NCBI GenBank assembly: GCA_021809645.1
Contig: JAJZKE010000005.1
Span: 1 to 32,115 of the forward strand
Direction of reading: 5' to 3'
DNA: 32,115 nucleotides
DNA from: a bacterium
GTDB lineage: Bacteria > Patescibacteriota > Saccharimonadia > Saccharimonadales > UBA4665
Part shown: positions 3,668 to 19,338 of the stretch, piece after piece
Layout of the letters: every line of letters starts with the position of its first letter
Numbering within the stretch: position 1 is the stretch's first letter
Notes under the pieces: model-generated
The model's database searches: none
The model's input: the letters and a program-made list of their open reading frames with translations, nothing else
What the model was told of the DNA's origin: nothing
Translations under genes and position numbers: made by a program

Positions 3668-3689
3668 GAAGCCTCTTCGGCTTCTTTTT
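3668..3689 (+). terminator. Intrinsic-terminator-like hairpin with T5, directly upstream of the 3704 gene
   Basis: GAAGCC-TCTTC-GGCTTC-TTTTT. The neighbouring upstream CDS is on the opposite strand, so it ends no known + strand gene. Confidence 0.65.
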
Positions 3690-3703
3690 GTTATTATTGG
3701 GGT
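3689..3703 (+). promoter_or_regulatory. Extended -10 (TGT-TATTAT) ending 6 nt before ATG; predicted leaderless transcript
   Basis: TTTTTGTTATTAT-TGGGGT-ATG; same spacing recurs at 4293, 7233, 9260, 11253 and 23532. Confidence 0.6.
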
Positions 3704-4243
3704 ATGAAAATTGGAGTTGGATTACTAATAGACGATGATGCACATAATGAACTAAGGAATTTAGAGCTCATTGTCTCAAATAAGACAGGGAATGAACTAG
3801 GGCTATTTCAGCCTCCACACATTACAATAAAAAGACCCTTTGAGGCTGACCAAAATACATTTGTAGATGCCAAGAAAATCTTAAAAGAATTCTCTGGCTC
3901 AATAGAAGAATTTGAAATAAATTTAGGAATTTATAGAACTTTTGGGAATGAGGTCGTATACGCCTATACAGAAGACAGCAAAATTGTTTTTGCACAAAAA
4001 ATACTGTTAGAAAAGCTTGAGAAAATTAATGTTATACCTGATGAGTTAGATATAGATAAATACATTGCGCATAGCACTATTGCGCTTGGTTTATCCCCTG
4101 ATGAGTTCGAAACAGCTAAATCAAACTTACAGAATTACAAAAGAAAGACTATAACTACGCTGATTTATCGAGTTGGTTTGTTCTTAAATGTTGATGAAAA
4201 GCACTGGATTGTTGTTGCTACTGAAAAATTTAAGGCAGTATAG
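3704..4243 (+). CDS. 2'-5' RNA ligase-like 2H phosphoesterase superfamily protein
   Basis: Two HxT motifs: 'PPHITIKRPF' and 'IAHSTIALGL'; 179 aa. Confidence 0.75.
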   Translation: MKIGVGLLIDDDAHNELRNLELIVSNKTGNELGLFQPPHITIKRPFEADQNTFVDAKKILKEFSGSIEEFEINLGIYRTFGNEVVYAYTEDSKIVFAQKILLEKLEKINVIPDELDIDKYIAHSTIALGLSPDEFETAKSNLQNYKRKTITTLIYRVGLFLNVDEKHWIVVATEKFKAV

Positions 4244-4254
4244 TTTCAAACATT

Positions 4255-4278
4255 AGAGCCTCAACGAGGCTCTTTTTT
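4255..4278 (+). terminator. Intrinsic terminator
   Basis: 8-bp perfect stem AGAGCCTC-AAC-GAGGCTCT followed by T tract. Confidence 0.8.
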
Positions 4279-4292
4279 GTTAAGATTGAAGT

Positions 4293-5049
4293 ATGAACAA
4301 TAGCCCACAGCAGTTTTATGACGACCTAGCAGACAGCTATGCTTTTATTTTCCCTGACTGGCAAGCAGCAGTTGAGCGACAGGGCGACACAATTAGCAAG
4401 CTCATTGGCGAACCTCCTCTTGCCGTCTTAGATTGCTCGTGTGGCATCGGTACCCAGGCTATCGGCTTAGCGAAACTAGGCTATACAGTTCACGCAACAG
4501 ATATAAGTTCCAAAGAAGTTGAAAAAGCGAAAGAAACTGCGGATAAAATGGGCGTTGACCTTACTTTCGGTATCGCAGATTTTCGCAGCTTGGACGATGT
4601 TGTAGAAGGTGAATATGATGTAGTTATCTCATTCGATAATTCATTGCCGCACCTTTTGACCGATGAGGATATAACAAAAGCACTCAATGCTATGAAAACT
4701 AAGCTAATAGATGGCGGTAAACTATTCATAAGTATTCGAGATTACGCCCCCCCTGCTTGAAGAAAAACCGAAAGCTACAATGCCACAGGTCACAAAAACA
4801 GATGATGGTGAAAGAGTGTACTTCCAAACGTGGCAGTGGAGTGATAACTTGCCGACTTACCAGACGAACCTATTTATCCTTATACCTGAAAATGGTAGCT
4901 GGAAAGTAAATACTTCCTCAACCACGTACAGGGCATTGCGAAAAAACGAGCTTAGTGAGTTGCTGGAAAAGTCTGGTTATAAAAACATTGAGTGGCTTGA
5001 ACCACAGCAAAGCGGTTATTATCAGCCAATCGTAATTGCAGCAAAATAA
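4293..5049 (+). pseudogene. Class I SAM-dependent methyltransferase, reading frame split by +1 at a C7 homopolymer
   Basis: ORF 4293-4760 carries 'AVLDCSCGIGTQAIGLAKLGYTVHATDIS'. The continuation to 5049 is in another frame. With six rather than seven Cs at 4747-4753 it reads '..FISIRDYAPLLEEKPKATMPQVTKTDDGERVYFQTWQW..', typical of the family. Confidence 0.75.
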
Positions 5050-5162: not shown

Positions 5163-5180
5163 TTTGAGTAACAGATACGA

Positions 5181-5201
5181 CACATCGAAGGATGTGTTTT
5201 T
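5181..5201 (+). terminator. Hairpin + T tract
   Basis: CACATC-GAAG-GATGTG-TTTTT. Confidence 0.6.
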
Positions 5202-5263: not shown

Positions 5264-5313
5264 TGTTATTTAGAAAAGACCGTGGTAATCTGAAGGCGCT
5301 AATGTAAGGAGGG
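5264..5313 (+). promoter_or_regulatory. Putative extended -10 (TGT-TATTTA) and strong Shine-Dalgarno for the precursor/ATP-grasp operon
   Basis: TTGTTATTTA at 5264-5272; AAGGAGGG at 5306-5313 upstream of ATG 5319; inverted repeat CACGGT (5231-5236)/ACCGTG (5279-5284) brackets the promoter. Confidence 0.5.
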
Positions 5314-5318
5314 TATTT

Positions 5319-5546
5319 ATGAAAGAGACGTTTCCTAGTTCGCAAGAGTTACCAAAAGTAATTAATCCTACACAGGTTGGCAAGACGGCACTTGAGCTCC
5401 TGGCTCAACCGGTAGAAGTAGTCTATGCCCCGGGGCCCCCACAAACACCTCCTGTTGACTTCCCTACAAGCCCTCACCCTACGCCTCCAGATCACACAGG
5501 CTATCCAGATGTGACCCCGCCAGATAGAGAACATCTTTTCGAGTAG
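5319..5546 (+). CDS. Putative graspetide (omega-ester/amide RiPP) precursor peptide, 75 aa
   Basis: Strong SD; stop codon directly abuts ATG of the ATP-grasp gene (GAG TAG ATG). Leader-like N-half 'MKETFPSSQELPKVINPTQVGKTALELLAQPVEVVY'. C-half rich in Pro, Thr and Asp/Glu with three TPP repeats: 'TPPVDFPTSPHP-TPPDHTGYPDV-TPPDREHLFE'. Confidence 0.6.
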   Translation: MKETFPSSQELPKVINPTQVGKTALELLAQPVEVVYAPGPPQTPPVDFPTSPHPTPPDHTGYPDVTPPDREHLFE

Positions 5547-6545
5547 ATGGCGGAGTTGTTATCTACTGTCAATAAATCTATCTTGATTGCATCCAGCTCA
5601 ATCGATCAGTACAACTGGGAGCCAGTAGCTGTAGCCTTGAATGATCGAGGCTATGACGTAACTGTTTACGAGGCGGATAAAGTCGCCCAGGGTATAATTC
5701 CGTTAGATGTTAGCGTAGATAATGATGCGGGTCTCAAGGTTGTTTACGATGGCAAGACTCTCGACTCAAGTAGTGTAGATGCTGCTTGGTATCGTCGCTC
5801 TACGTTAATCTCTATGGCTATAGAACGCGATAGGGCAAGACAAATTGGAATAGATGGTGAGCGAAAAATAATCCAGACGGCGATATGGGACGGTATACCT
5901 AACGAATCATGGCTCAACTCTCCCGACAATATTCGTAGAGCCGAACAGAAGATTACCCAACTAGCTTTAGCTCATGAGTTGGGCTTTTCTATTCCCAATA
6001 CGGTCGCATCCAATCGCTGGTCAACTATCCTTGATACATTGCAGGAAGACATCGTATTCAAGATATCGTACATATATGCATTATATTGTGAACCAGATGA
6101 CATCCGGACTGTCTATACGACACCTCTTAAAAATAATCCAGACGGGCTGCCTATTGAGGGGAACCCATTTCCTGGGTTATGGCAGGAAAACATACTAAAG
6201 GCGCGTGAGTGGCGTGTCACGATTGTTGGTGACGATACATTTGATGCGGCGATATACACTACGAAAGATGCTAAAGATGATTGGCGAAGGCATACGACCT
6301 CGTCTGGGCGAGTTGACTTTCGTGCTGAGTCTTTTCCTGATGATCAGAAAGAGAAATGTTTTCAATACCTTGGGCGGTTCGGCTTACGGTTCGGTGCTTT
6401 TGACTTTATTGAAGGTTCTGACGGTAAGATGACATTTTTAGAATGTAACGCGAACGGCCAATATAAATGGCTTGAGAATAATCTTGGCTTTCCAATCTCT
6501 GAAGCTATTGCCAATGAACTTGCGACTATTGCTGACAGGAACTAG
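5547..6545 (+). CDS. ATP-grasp RiPP maturase of the MvdC/MvdD graspetide-synthetase type
   Basis: 'DAAWYRRSTLISMA', 'WLNSPDNIRRAEQKITQLALAHELGFSIPNTVASN', 'EWRVTIVGDDTFDAAIYT...DDWRRH', 'RFGAFDFIEGSDGKMTFLECNANGQYKWLENNLGFPISEAIA': hallmark blocks of this family. Confidence 0.88.
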   Translation: MAELLSTVNKSILIASSSIDQYNWEPVAVALNDRGYDVTVYEADKVAQGIIPLDVSVDNDAGLKVVYDGKTLDSSSVDAAWYRRSTLISMAIERDRARQIGIDGERKIIQTAIWDGIPNESWLNSPDNIRRAEQKITQLALAHELGFSIPNTVASNRWSTILDTLQEDIVFKISYIYALYCEPDDIRTVYTTPLKNNPDGLPIEGNPFPGLWQENILKAREWRVTIVGDDTFDAAIYTTKDAKDDWRRHTTSSGRVDFRAESFPDDQKEKCFQYLGRFGLRFGAFDFIEGSDGKMTFLECNANGQYKWLENNLGFPISEAIANELATIADRN

Positions 6546-6547
6546 AT

Positions 6548-7126
6548 TTAACTATATGTTTTAAGCATAAGTTCCTTATACTCTGCTATCGTACTGAGAC
6601 CCATCGTTTTCCGACGTTCGTCAACATGCCTTTCATCTTTTATTGGCAATGGCTTCATATCAGGTCCCATGCTATCAAACTGTGTTCCGTATAATTGTAA
6701 CTTTTGTTCAGAGACAAGAATCCTGTCTTCAAGGTAGGCTATATTACTGGGTGATACGAGTCCGACTGGCAATTGTTTGAGTAGTACTAGGCATTCTTTT
6801 TGAAAACTCCGATCATGATCGGCGTGTTGAGCTATGAGCCATGCATCCATTGATGCCTCAACACCAACCATAGGAATAGTTGGCCAACCGTATTGTTTAA
6901 TAATTTTTTTGAGTGCAGTAGTGTGCTTCTTGTCCAATGTATAGTCCCATGATTCCCCATTGTGAATAGCATTATTACGCATATCCCGATCAGCCTTTGC
7001 CATAGCAAGAAGTCGTGAACGGAGTCTAGGTTGCGTTACATTAACCTGCATATATACAGTGTAACTCCCGGCACTTACATATTGAGCAAATATTCTTGAT
7101 ATGGTTGCTCTAATATCTTTCTCCAT
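6548..7126 (-). CDS. DUF6624-like protein
   Basis: 'IIKQYGWPTIPMVGVEASMDAWLIAQHADHDRSFQKECLVLL...' resembles the DUF6624 core. Convergent with ATP-grasp gene, 2-bp gap. Confidence 0.6.
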   Translation of the reverse strand: MEKDIRATISRIFAQYVSAGSYTVYMQVNVTQPRLRSRLLAMAKADRDMRNNAIHNGESWDYTLDKKHTTALKKIIKQYGWPTIPMVGVEASMDAWLIAQHADHDRSFQKECLVLLKQLPVGLVSPSNIAYLEDRILVSEQKLQLYGTQFDSMGPDMKPLPIKDERHVDERRKTMGLSTIAEYKELMLKTYS

Positions 7127-7193
7127 CTCACTATCTCATCAGAGATATGGTGTAAACTTTTACCTACTTGCTGCACCACGCTGAAACTAATAG

Positions 7194-7218
7194 AGACGCT
7201 CTAACTGAGCGTCTTTTT
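7194..7218 (+). terminator. Intrinsic-terminator-like hairpin directly upstream of the 7233 gene
   Basis: 8-bp stem AGACGCTC-TAACT-GAGCGTCT then TTTT. The upstream CDS is divergent, so there is no + strand gene to terminate. Confidence 0.7.
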
Positions 7219-7232
7219 GTTATGATAGGACT
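7218..7232 (+). promoter_or_regulatory. Extended -10 (TGT-TATGAT) ending 6 nt before ATG; predicted leaderless
   Basis: TTTTTGTTATGAT-AGGACT-ATG. Confidence 0.65.
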
Positions 7233-7934
7233 ATGCAACATTTAGTAATTTCCGCTATAGAAAATGTTCCTGTTATTTCTCCTAATGATAGCATTGGTCA
7301 GATTTTGATAGCAGCTATTAAAGAATCGCACGTACGTCTTCACGATAATGATATTTTGAGCGTAGCCTCAAAAGTAGTATCTATCGCGGAAAATCGGTAT
7401 ATAGACTTGAATACCGTCAAAGTAAGTCAAGAAGCTTTGCTCCTTCATAATAAATTTCGTCGTAAAAAACCTGAAGTGCTACAGCTAATACTGGAAGCTG
7501 CAGGTGGTGACTCAAGTAACCTTAGATTGAACGACGGTTGGATAGGCGCAAAGAATCATATTGGTAGGGTTCTAACAAGCGCAGGAATCGATAAGGCAAC
7601 TGAAGATTCTGTTTTATTGTTACCGTCTAATCCCGATGCGTCGGCTAGAAATATTGGGGATGCGATATTTAAAGAGTTTGGTTTACATGTTGGCGTTTTA
7701 ATAACTGACAGTGATGGCAGGGAAGGAATAGCAGGTGCTACGCAGCTATGTGTTGGCTTATATGGAGTACCTCCAATTCGAAAGCAATACGATTCAGAAG
7801 AAACTGTATGCGATATGTTGGCTGCAGCATGTGGACTTATTATGGGACAACGTGGGAATAATATTCCAACAGTAGTAGTCAGTGGTTTTCAATATATTTT
7901 TGATGTTAATGCCAAATTAGCAGATGCTTTTTAA
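7233..7934 (+). CDS. Coenzyme F420:L-glutamate ligase (CofE/FbiB N-terminal)-like protein
   Basis: 'DILSVASKVVSIAENR', 'LLLPSNPDASARNIGDAIFKEFGLHVGVLITDSDGREGIAGATQLCVGLYGV' match the CofE signature blocks. Confidence 0.78.
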   Translation: MQHLVISAIENVPVISPNDSIGQILIAAIKESHVRLHDNDILSVASKVVSIAENRYIDLNTVKVSQEALLLHNKFRRKKPEVLQLILEAAGGDSSNLRLNDGWIGAKNHIGRVLTSAGIDKATEDSVLLLPSNPDASARNIGDAIFKEFGLHVGVLITDSDGREGIAGATQLCVGLYGVPPIRKQYDSEETVCDMLAAACGLIMGQRGNNIPTVVVSGFQYIFDVNAKLADAF

Positions 7935-9259: not shown

Positions 9260-9898
9260 ATGATTAACGATGTTCCATTCGTACCAAATAGCGAAGATGA
9301 TCTGCATTGCCTTCAAGCGGCATATATGATGATTGCTAAGTTCTATAAACCTGATTTTGAAATAGATTGGGATGAATGGTCTAAACTAACTGGATTTGAA
9401 GTAAATAAAGGAACATGGGCAAGTGCTGGAGTGCTTTGGTTTAGTAATAACGGATTCGATGTTAAACATTTCGAAGTTTTTGATTACGATGAGTTTTTCA
9501 GGATTGGTGAAGAATATCTAATTCAAAAAAGTGGACAATCTATAGGACAGTGGCAAATTGAACATAGCAATATTCCATTAGAACAAAAGAGAGCAAAACA
9601 GATGATCGATAAAGGACTTTTAGAAGATAGAGAACCAAAAATGAGTGATATTAAAGAATTCTTAGATAAGGGTTATCTACTACATGCTTTACTTAACTCC
9701 AGAAGACTTAATGGTAAGGAGGGATACTTCGGACATGCTGTTGTGGTTATAGGCTATGATGACAGGTCGCTTATAGTACATGACCCTGGTTCGCCTCCTT
9801 ATCCTAACGGGAGTATATTATTTGAAGATTTTGAAGCTGCTTGGGCTGACCCAAACAAAGATTCTAAAGAGTTAGATGCTGTTAAGCTAAAGGCGTAG
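9260..9898 (+). CDS. Papain-like peptidase C39-like family protein
   Basis: 'SEDDLHCLQAAYMMIAKFY' (Cys nucleophile context), 'GHAVVVIGYDDRSLIVHDPGSPPYPNGSILFEDFEAAW' (His/Asp context). Leaderless-type TGT-TACTAT-6 nt-ATG upstream. Confidence 0.7.
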   Translation: MINDVPFVPNSEDDLHCLQAAYMMIAKFYKPDFEIDWDEWSKLTGFEVNKGTWASAGVLWFSNNGFDVKHFEVFDYDEFFRIGEEYLIQKSGQSIGQWQIEHSNIPLEQKRAKQMIDKGLLEDREPKMSDIKEFLDKGYLLHALLNSRRLNGKEGYFGHAVVVIGYDDRSLIVHDPGSPPYPNGSILFEDFEAAWADPNKDSKELDAVKLKA

Positions 9899-10320: not shown

Positions 10321-10605
10321 ATGGATAAAAATAGCACAATTAGTCTTCAGGAAGTGAGAAAAGATCCGCTAGGTTTTTTAAACCAAGTAAATAAGGGCAA
10401 AAGAATAACGGTTATATATCATTCCAAACCTCTAGTTACAGTAATGAGCGCAGATAGCAACGCTTACGGTCAGACGAAAAGCATAAAAAGGATGTTGCAA
10501 TACGCTGACCTTGCTAATAAAAGTGCAAAAAAGTCTATTGATAACAACAAGAGTTATAAAGAAATTTATGCTGAAGACATGGCTAAAAAGTATGGTGTTT
10601 CTTGA
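10321..10605 (+). CDS. Phd/YefM-type antitoxin
   Basis: 'ISLQEVRKDPLGFLNQVNKGKRITVIYHSKPLVTVMS' typical N-terminal antitoxin domain. Confidence 0.72.
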   Translation: MDKNSTISLQEVRKDPLGFLNQVNKGKRITVIYHSKPLVTVMSADSNAYGQTKSIKRMLQYADLANKSAKKSIDNNKSYKEIYAEDMAKKYGVS

Positions 10606-10978
10606 CTCAAGTATACTTTTAGAAGTTATTCTAAAGGGCAGAACAAAACGTTCTCAAGTCAAGGAGTACCTTGAGTCTATAAGTAAGTCCGACGACTTTT
10701 CATCAATTTCTATGTTAACTGTACATTTAATTATGCACTTCGGACGAAAAGAGCAGATAGATGACGGTTTGTTACAAGCTGTAATCAATGAAAATGAACT
10801 TCTTGCCCTATCTAACGAGGATTATGATTGGGCACTGGCTAATGAAAGAGACAAAGATTTTGAAGATGCACTACAATTAGCAGTAGCTATGAGGGCAGAA
10901 TGTGATATATTTGTGAGCTTAGATAAGAGACTAACCAGAGACTATTCTGATCTACCAATCAAAATACTTACCATTTAG
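10592..10978 (+). CDS. PIN-domain toxin
   Basis: From ATG 10592: 'MVFLDSSILLEVI...DFEDALQLAVAMRAECDIFVSLDKRLTR' with the PIN acidic residues. Overlaps antitoxin end by 14 nt. The track's 10511 start lies inside the antitoxin gene. Confidence 0.75.
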   Translation: MVFLDSSILLEVILKGRTKRSQVKEYLESISKSDDFSSISMLTVHLIMHFGRKEQIDDGLLQAVINENELLALSNEDYDWALANERDKDFEDALQLAVAMRAECDIFVSLDKRLTRDYSDLPIKILTI

Positions 10979-17562: not shown

Positions 17563-19338
17563 TTAAGTATTTTTACTTCTGTACCATTGCCGCCATATTA
17601 GTCTATGGATAGGTATTAATCTTGGAATATCACGTATACCAGGTATAAAAGGAACTAAGAGAAGTAACAAAGTTGCCGCTCCTGTCAGGTAAACTGCTAT
17701 TAGATCAACATTAATTGAAGAACTAAAAGCTGGTATCTGATACCATAACGTATATAGCCATAACCATGGCTGTCCCGGGTAAGAACCCGACTCATTCATC
17801 ACCCCCCATTGATTACTGGTTAGATGTTCAGATTTAGCTATATTAGAAAAATAGTTACCATCTTCAATGAACAGTAAAGGTTTAGTGTAGTTGGTTCCAT
17901 AAAAAGGTCTTTGGGCGAGTAAATCGGTGTCTATGGCTCCACTCTTTGCTAAGGCTAATTCATTATTAACCATAATGGGTACTGGTCCGTCATTGGCTTT
18001 AGGCACGATTGGCAATCCACCTTTAAAGCTCACTTTTTTAACAGCTTGAAGATAAGTTGTAGCCCAATATTTTTGTAGTCCCGGGTTTGCTCTAGTATAT
18101 TCTGATAAAGCCAACTGAAGTTTCGAGTTACCAGGAGATACTGATTTAAGAGGTGTCAGAACGAAAGTCTTTGCTGGGTCGATACCTTGATGGACGCCAG
18201 CTAGCATTTGCCATGATATACCGCCTAATTTTTGAACCTCGGCATGACCGTTATTATATGGTGGACCGTAATTAGCCGATTCACTCGTACCAGCTAATTC
18301 ACTGGCTGTTGTAGCCATAAAATCAGCTGGAGCCAGTTTAGCCCATGTAGCTACTGTTACTGGCGGCTGATCGGGCGATGATAGCAGCGTAGCAAACGAT
18401 AATACTAAAATAAGTACTATGATCGTGGCTATTATGCCTTCTTTTAGAATGTCGTATTTTTTTGTTGGCCCTCTCCATTCGGCTGCTTCAGCGGCCTTTA
18501 AGACTTTTTTAGCAGCTTTACTTTTTGCTTTTTGAATAGGGTGTGATACTCCCCTGACTCTAACTAAAATAATATGTAGAGCAACAACAGTTACTAATAA
18601 AAGAGGAATGATCACAATATGCCAAGTAATCATCTGACCAAAATTCATTAAATTAAAGAATGCTCCTAGACCGGTGGAGTTAATTGCATCTTTACCATTT
18701 GTTGCTATCCACTGTGAATCAAAATTTTGTTGTGATAAGTAGCCAGTAAAACATTCAAGTATTGATACAGCAAATGCTGCTACGCCAGTCATCCACGTTA
18801 GTGCTCTTTTACCACGCCAGGCAGCCATCCAAAATTTACCCCATAGATGGATCACCATAAATGCCATAAATAGCTCAACACCCCATAAGTGGATACTATT
18901 AAAAAAATGACCTAATGTGCTTTGATGCCACCAGCTAACACCACCTATAGCTAAAACCATACCAGAGACAATAACCATTCCTAGGGCAGCGATGGTTGCA
19001 ACACCAAAGACATAAATCCAAGAAGCTACATAAGAAGGTTGATTATCAGGCAGTAATTTGTTAGGGGGTAGCTTGCTTAAGAGAAAACTTCGAACTTTTT
19101 TAATTAACATATCATCAGGTTTACTCGAATATTTATTAAAATCTAATTGTGGTTCGTCGTTAATTTCGTTTTTCGAAGGTTTTGATTTTGGGAAAGGTAA
19201 TATTACGGCTAATCCAAAAATAACGACCATCAATAAAATGATGATCAGATTAGCGATAGAAATACTAAAAAAGGACCAATGGAAGTAATGTTGTGGATGG
19301 TTTAAATTAATCAACGATCCATATATATTTATTTTCAT
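17563..19338 (-). CDS. Cytochrome b/b6-family dihaem membrane protein
   Basis: HLWGVELFMAFMVIH (H-x13-H) and HIVIIPLLLVTVVALH (H-x14-H) haem-ligand pairs; 'SWWHQSTLGHFFNSIHLWGVELFM', 'CFTGYLSQ'. 591 aa with an extra extracytoplasmic segment and a C-terminal TM. Confidence 0.85.
   Translation of the reverse strand: MKINIYGSLINLNHPQHYFHWSFFSISIANLIIILLMVVIFGLAVILPFPKSKPSKNEINDEPQLDFNKYSSKPDDMLIKKVRSFLLSKLPPNKLLPDNQPSYVASWIYVFGVATIAALGMVIVSGMVLAIGGVSWWHQSTLGHFFNSIHLWGVELFMAFMVIHLWGKFWMAAWRGKRALTWMTGVAAFAVSILECFTGYLSQQNFDSQWIATNGKDAINSTGLGAFFNLMNFGQMITWHIVIIPLLLVTVVALHIILVRVRGVSHPIQKAKSKAAKKVLKAAEAAEWRGPTKKYDILKEGIIATIIVLILVLSFATLLSSPDQPPVTVATWAKLAPADFMATTASELAGTSESANYGPPYNNGHAEVQKLGGISWQMLAGVHQGIDPAKTFVLTPLKSVSPGNSKLQLALSEYTRANPGLQKYWATTYLQAVKKVSFKGGLPIVPKANDGPVPIMVNNELALAKSGAIDTDLLAQRPFYGTNYTKPLLFIEDGNYFSNIAKSEHLTSNQWGVMNESGSYPGQPWLWLYTLWYQIPAFSSSINVDLIAVYLTGAATLLLLLVPFIPGIRDIPRLIPIHRLIWRQWYRSKNT

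Follow-up and report, generated by a model that had tools for sequence, protein, structure and literature searches.

Does the pair of adjoining genes at 5319-6545 encode a graspetide precursor and the ATP-grasp ligase that cross-links it, as the initial annotation proposed, or an ATP-grasp ligase with another substrate beside an incidental small open reading frame? The window, by which we mean the whole 32,115-nucleotide stretch analysed here, is contig C7 of a 0.73-Mb genome of 41 contigs that is 91% complete. The guess that it came from a CPR bacterium was correct: judged by the kinship of its relatives the source is a Saccharibacterium, and the bacterium is tiny and probably parasitic. We consider it highly probable that the two genes at 5319-6545 form a graspetide operon of this Saccharibacterium, in which a ligase bound to a leader helix would link Asp/Glu to Thr/Ser of a proline-rich core by esters.

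The precursor gene (75 aa, plus strand, 5319-5546) is preceded by the Shine-Dalgarno sequence AAGGAGGG at 5306-5313 (plus strand), and its TAG stop (5544-5546) abuts the ATG at 5547 of the gene for the graspetide synthetase (332 aa, plus strand, 5547-6545); the strong ribosome-binding site and the touching stop and start were thus both described accurately before. A gene for a 192-aa DUF6624 protein, a possible partner (PF20329, 72.6 bits), lies convergently on the minus strand at 6548-7126, its stop 2 bp from that of the ligase. Terminator-like hairpins were found by a hairpin search ahead of the unit (5179-5198, plus strand) and past it (7192-7216, given for the plus strand and suited to either), eight such hairpins being observed in the region compared with 1.7 expected.

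The ligase matched the Pfam MvdD pre-ATP-grasp domain PF21068 with 30.6 bits (cut-off 27) and the NCBIfam models TIGR04187, TIGR04185 and TIGR04184 with E-values of 3.6e-46, 2.5e-44 and 6e-44, compared with 2.8e-7 for the RimK family; the curated NCBIfam cut-offs were not reached (158/350 bits and lower), and it is therefore not a microviridin ligase proper. A sequence search of the PDB returned MdnB and MdnC as the best matches, along with AMdnB, CdnC and PruB. Among the 46 ATP-grasp proteins of a tree, 17 Saccharibacteria ligases formed one clade (support 100/99), from which the RimK-like ATP-grasps of the same class separated at 100/100. The ligase part of the AlphaFold model was mostly at pLDDT >90, and in a fold search of the PDB with this model ranks 1-32 were all graspetide synthetases and RimK followed from rank 33; the first match was MdnC crystallised with MdnA (E 4.5e-24, TM 0.83 by target). 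On profiles, tree and fold alike the ligase is thus of the MvdC/MvdD type, as had been proposed, and groups with graspetide synthetases, apart from the RimK-like ATP-grasps. Most of the sequence blocks named for it earlier were also confirmed (WYRR, DWR as part of DWRR, and ECNxxGQ as ECNANGQ), and the one given as GL.IP.T actually reads LGFSIPNT, in KITQLALAHELGFSIPNT. The D-W-R motif (residues 245-247, plus strand, 6279-6287), the counterpart of the DFR motif of graspetide synthetases described in PMC13097080, is invariant in 13/13 ligases of the clade, and in an alignment of 40 rows W and R are invariant and D is nearly so. ECNANGQ (plus strand, 6441-6461) includes the E-x-N that presumably binds metal in the ATP-grasp site, and its E299, N301 and G304 are invariant both in the 13 clade ligases and in the 40-row alignment.

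A motif search located VGKTALELLA, the presumed recognition motif of a leader helix, at residues 20-29 of the precursor (plus strand, 5376-5405). The pattern [VL]G-x(1,2)-T-[AV]-[LF]-E-x-[LF]-A is common to the window precursor and to small ORFs led by Shine-Dalgarno sequences beside related Saccharibacteria ligases; these ligase-adjacent ORFs are of about 54-90 aa and the wider form of the motif is G-x(1,2)-[TS]-[AVI]-[VLIF]-[EQ]-x-[LFI]-[AS]. Conservation of the small ORF beside homologues of the ligase, which had been suggested as a check, was therefore found in the form of this motif, and together with the adjacency it supports the 75-aa ORF as precursor of the ligase. The pattern had 16 matches among 6565 distinct small ORFs and all 16 were ligase-adjacent precursors. 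Given that it was written after several precursors had been seen, a fairer test was run in which profiles from one core type alone (the types are described below) were compared with 7228 small ORFs. The sole non-training matches of the ADDQ-only profile were seven TVPDER precursors (E 0.018-0.5), and outside its own kind the TVPDER profile matched L009 (4e-4), L016, L019, one unrelated ORF of the window and L011. As profile scores these E-values across core types are weak one by one, and their ranking is clean. The window precursor was not recovered at E <1 among the 7228 small ORFs by the ADDQ profile, the TVPDER profile or that of the other proline-rich precursors; it was tied to the family by a BLASTP match to the precursor of L003, its nearest relative (E 3e-6), by its own leader motif and by its position. 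The elements TPPVxFxT and DxEHL[FY]E are conserved between these two precursors, which argues that the 75-aa ORF is more than chance. When a family profile of 14 precursors was run against 148 related genomes, 15 strong matches were obtained, all of which (15/15) adjoined a ligase, and since most of the 15 were members of the profile, the absence of orphans is the informative part.

Among seven TVPDER sister precursors pN/pS was low in the leader helix (0.20) and the core (0.13) and higher in the N-terminus (0.60) and the linker (0.56). Two such islands of purifying selection are what a leader-core RiPP precursor would be expected to show. AlphaFold gave a short helix at residues 23-28 of the window precursor with low confidence, and in a model of the precursor fused to the ligase by read-through of the TAG the precursor was unstructured (pLDDT ~34-50), with no confident structure or leader docking. 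The published leader signature Phhx(1,2)h was present in 0/16 precursors tested; according to PMC8939145 it occurs in about half of precursors, and membership of the class does not strictly depend on it. Next to the ligases of other CPR bacteria, small ORFs carry leaders of the PF type (LPFILGYLE in L191, PFPVRF in L189), so that the Saccharibacteria leader looks like a departure from it. Further candidate precursors, with PF-type or other leaders, were observed beside more distant ligases (L153, 3060-3320; L189, L191, L194, L196 and L199).

The predicted core (residues 36-75, plus strand, 5424-5543, with an inferred boundary) contains 13 Pro, five Thr, one Ser, four Asp, two Glu and no Lys. 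The donors would be T43, T50, S51, T55, T60 and T66 and the acceptors D47, D58, D64, D69, E71 and E75. Of the chemistry proposed earlier, Thr/Ser donors and Asp/Glu acceptors stand and Lys donors fall away; given the lack of Lys in the core, only ester links and no lactams would be expected. The three TPP units, TPPVDFPTSPHP, TPPDHTGYPDV and TPPDREHLFE, are present exactly as reported before. Three TPP in a 40-residue core were equalled in 0.36% of shuffles, and the codons differ among the three copies (ACACCTCCT, ACGCCTCCA and ACCCCGCCA), indicating that the units are not a fresh DNA duplication. Three kinds of core track the ligase clades of the tree: the TVPDER core (...NS[VL]TRLxDGQTVPDER), the ADDQ core and its relatives (...SRSNxSS...ADxDDQ, including a second locus of the source genome, G000:C19), and proline-rich cores, found in the window (TPP units, DREHLFE) and in L003/L043 (TPPVPFQTN..., DSEHLYE). 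The YM_S32 ligase belongs to the proline-rich clade, and the ORF next to it reads FPTGDPGDPLPIPRPRPGP and has a less certain leader; L016/L041, with a proline-rich core ending GGQTVPDTDF, were left out of the tree because their ligase is broken. T-x-P-D recurs in several of these cores: in TVPDER, as TVPDA in L009/L050, in L016, and in the window, where TPPD appears twice and TPPVD once. We take it to be the likeliest ring unit. Rings of the Ser-to-acid i+3 type have a precedent in microviridins.

By analogy with MdnC-MdnA, the ligase would bind the VGKTALELLA helix of the precursor N-terminus and with ATP would activate side chains of Asp/Glu within its C-terminal, proline-rich half; these would then be joined to nearby Thr/Ser hydroxyls as omega-esters. 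All rings would be lactones. As many as six could form, although two to four are more likely, and the T-x-P-(V)D repeats are the likeliest sites. The locus has an adjoining gene pair, a ligase of this family, a conserved leader and a core rich in donors and acceptors; as predicted from sequence, its product is very likely a small peptide stapled by side-chain ester cross-links. The precursor lacks a GG site, neither a leader peptidase nor a transporter is encoded in the locus, and the 91%-complete genome contains no Peptidase_C39. A C39_2-like protein at 9260-9898 was considered as leader peptidase and set aside, since the match is weak and the gene is 2.7 kb away and without an equivalent in sister loci. 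Any role of the product towards a host or competitor is speculation.

The same genome contains a second graspetide operon (L002, G000:C19:18614-20458), consisting of an ADDQ-type precursor, a DUF6624 gene and a ligase that is 43% identical to the window ligase. In G001, a genome of the same genus, there was no match to the window ligase or to the downstream F420-ligase gene. The flanking LigT-like, methyltransferase and F420-ligase-like genes have a common start region, CTTTTTGTTAtgATtGnnnTATG, at 3684-3706, 4273-4295 and 7213-7235; these three matches compare with 0.01 expected and are the sole exact matches to the core pattern in the genome. The glycine/sarcosine N-methyltransferase-like gene at 4293-5049 lies in two frames, probably owing to a frameshift or an assembly error, and was rejected as a tailoring enzyme, being split in this way and not seen at other ligases. 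A toxin-antitoxin pair (Phd/YefM-like and PIN-domain) is located at 10321-10978, and toxin-antitoxin-like genes also occur close to the sister ligase loci L005, L011, L018 and L019. A protein with a cytochrome b N-terminal domain (17563-19338, minus strand; PF13631, 2e-14), with FUR and DsbD_2-like genes close by, is unexpected for a genome this small. With regard to carriage by phages or viruses, no related ligase and no related DUF6624 was found in IMG/VR, and PADLOC gave no match to known defence genes.

A DUF6624 or DUF6624-like gene sits between precursor and ligase in L002, L003, L011, L016 and L130 and upstream of the precursor in L019. Several of the operonic proteins match PF20329 only weakly, and that of L003 was detected just with our own profile; all of them group in a single clade (98/97). 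The window copy falls outside it, closest to stand-alone DUF6624, and canonical DUF6624 genes are common as stand-alone copies. In the window and in L135, which has a distant ligase, the gene is convergent directly past the ligase. Given this orientation and the other branch, the role of DUF6624 in the window is uncertain; given the operonic genes in several proline-rich and ADDQ sister loci, the ligase may need a DUF6624 partner. The model of the protein is all-helical (pLDDT 75, from an alignment of four sequences), its fold search gave no PDB match better than E 0.17 and sequence hits to AlkD were weak; there is therefore no support for a known protease fold and no function could be deduced from the fold. 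The TVPDER loci have no DUF6624 nearby. In L004-L008 and L055 a conserved gene of about 158 aa with a weak DUF6886 match was observed on the opposite strand, convergent directly past the TVPDER-type ligase.

Three other explanations were weighed. That the ligase is of the RimK/glutathione-synthetase type, acting on another substrate beside an incidental small ORF, is extremely unlikely: the ATP-grasp fold is common to both types and there is the weak RimK-family match, but the E-values of the MvdD/MvdC models are over 35 orders of magnitude lower, the tree and the fold search separate the ligase from RimK-like proteins, and precursors occur genome-wide only beside ligases. Concerning DUF6624, it is possible, if less likely than not, that an independent mobile gene, for example a cassette gene, adjoins the system by chance, in line with the resemblance of the window copy to the canonical stand-alone genes, of which one (L185, 3884-4429, Klebsiella plasmid NZ_CP009874.1) is an integron cassette between dfrA1 and aadA1. 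Against a chance neighbour, DUF6624 is rare, being present in 11/393 genomes of the class, yet 9/14 ligases of other CPR lineages have it within about 1.5 kb, several Saccharibacteria ligases adjoin it, and it is reported at high frequency in four graspetide groups (18, 20, 23 and 42; Carter et al. 2026, PMC13097080).

We regard it as unlikely that the locus is a weakened copy which lost its operonic DUF6624, leaving a ligase that is inefficient alone or reliant on the convergent DUF6624. The sister loci that keep the gene in or next to the operon, the position of the window copy outside the operonic clade and the requirement for a partner protein in another graspetide group (PMC13097080) are compatible with such a loss; both frames are open, however, the Shine-Dalgarno sequence is strong, the catalytic motifs are intact and the core and leader motifs are retained, and the TVPDER-type loci are under clear purifying selection in spite of having no DUF6624 nearby. 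The reading that we prefer is a graspetide operon. A broader proposal, rather improbable at present, is that CPR graspetide synthetases have in DUF6624 a dedicated partner or tailoring protein and that Saccharibacteria possess their own leader class (LGxT-V-F-E-x-LA), by which unrelated cores, among them a proline-rich, Lys-free core with several rings, are fed into these ligases to give peptides with effects on the host or on rival episymbionts.

In streamlined organisms such as Saccharibacteria, which live on other bacteria, the retention of two separate graspetide operons in a 0.73-Mb genome suggests that modified peptides are important to this way of life. Precursors missed by the published signature could be found with the leader motif, the linkage of DUF6624 to CPR ligases offers a clear and cheap test of an unassigned family, and a Lys-free proline-rich core would be an all-ester scaffold.

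The microviridin/chryseoviridin type (MdnB/MdnC/CdnC) resembles the window in its MvdC/MvdD-type ligase beside a small leader-core precursor, in fold and catalytic motifs, and in having Ser/Thr donors and Asp/Glu acceptors, whereas the PFFARFL leader and the TxKYPSDxx(D/E) core of microviridins are absent from the window precursor, which is Lys-free and proline-rich with TPP. CPR graspetides were reported in 2022 as branches 1 and 2 (Makarova et al., PMC8939145), which like the window have small precursors beside an ATP-grasp ligase in CPR bacteria; a "cluster 23" protein of these branches may be DUF6624, judged by the conserved His and Arg mentioned there. On inspection the window core, with no Thr pair at i,i+4, does not match the branch-1 core TxxxTx(6-10)Dx(1-4)D given in that paper, and the precursors described here also differ in lacking its leader signature; its main text does not name Saccharibacteria, and it describes precursors as unidentified in most branch-2 loci. 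Groups 27 and 42 of the RODEO survey are from candidate phyla, as is the window, and group 42 often has DUF6624, which the survey (Carter et al. 2026, PMC13097080) describes as perhaps a class of biosynthetic enzymes still to be discovered; the likeness is by description only, and the main text characterises no product of these groups. In the same paper, rosaritide MirB/MirC exemplifies a synthetase that depends on a partner encoded by a neighbouring gene, the partner there being SurA/PpiC-like and not DUF6624. A full-text literature search for graspetides together with Saccharibacteria found no paper, and supplements, which lie outside such a search, may hold these loci. Given that CPR graspetides are published, the finding is less surprising than the initial annotation held. 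The ligase enzyme and its chemistry are already known; the leader class and the proline-rich core clade are these loci's own. What this analysis adds is a leader family that fails Phhx(1,2)h, a proline-rich clade that has T-x-P-D units, a second graspetide operon in the same 0.73-Mb genome and, across CPR, a link between DUF6624 and these ligases.
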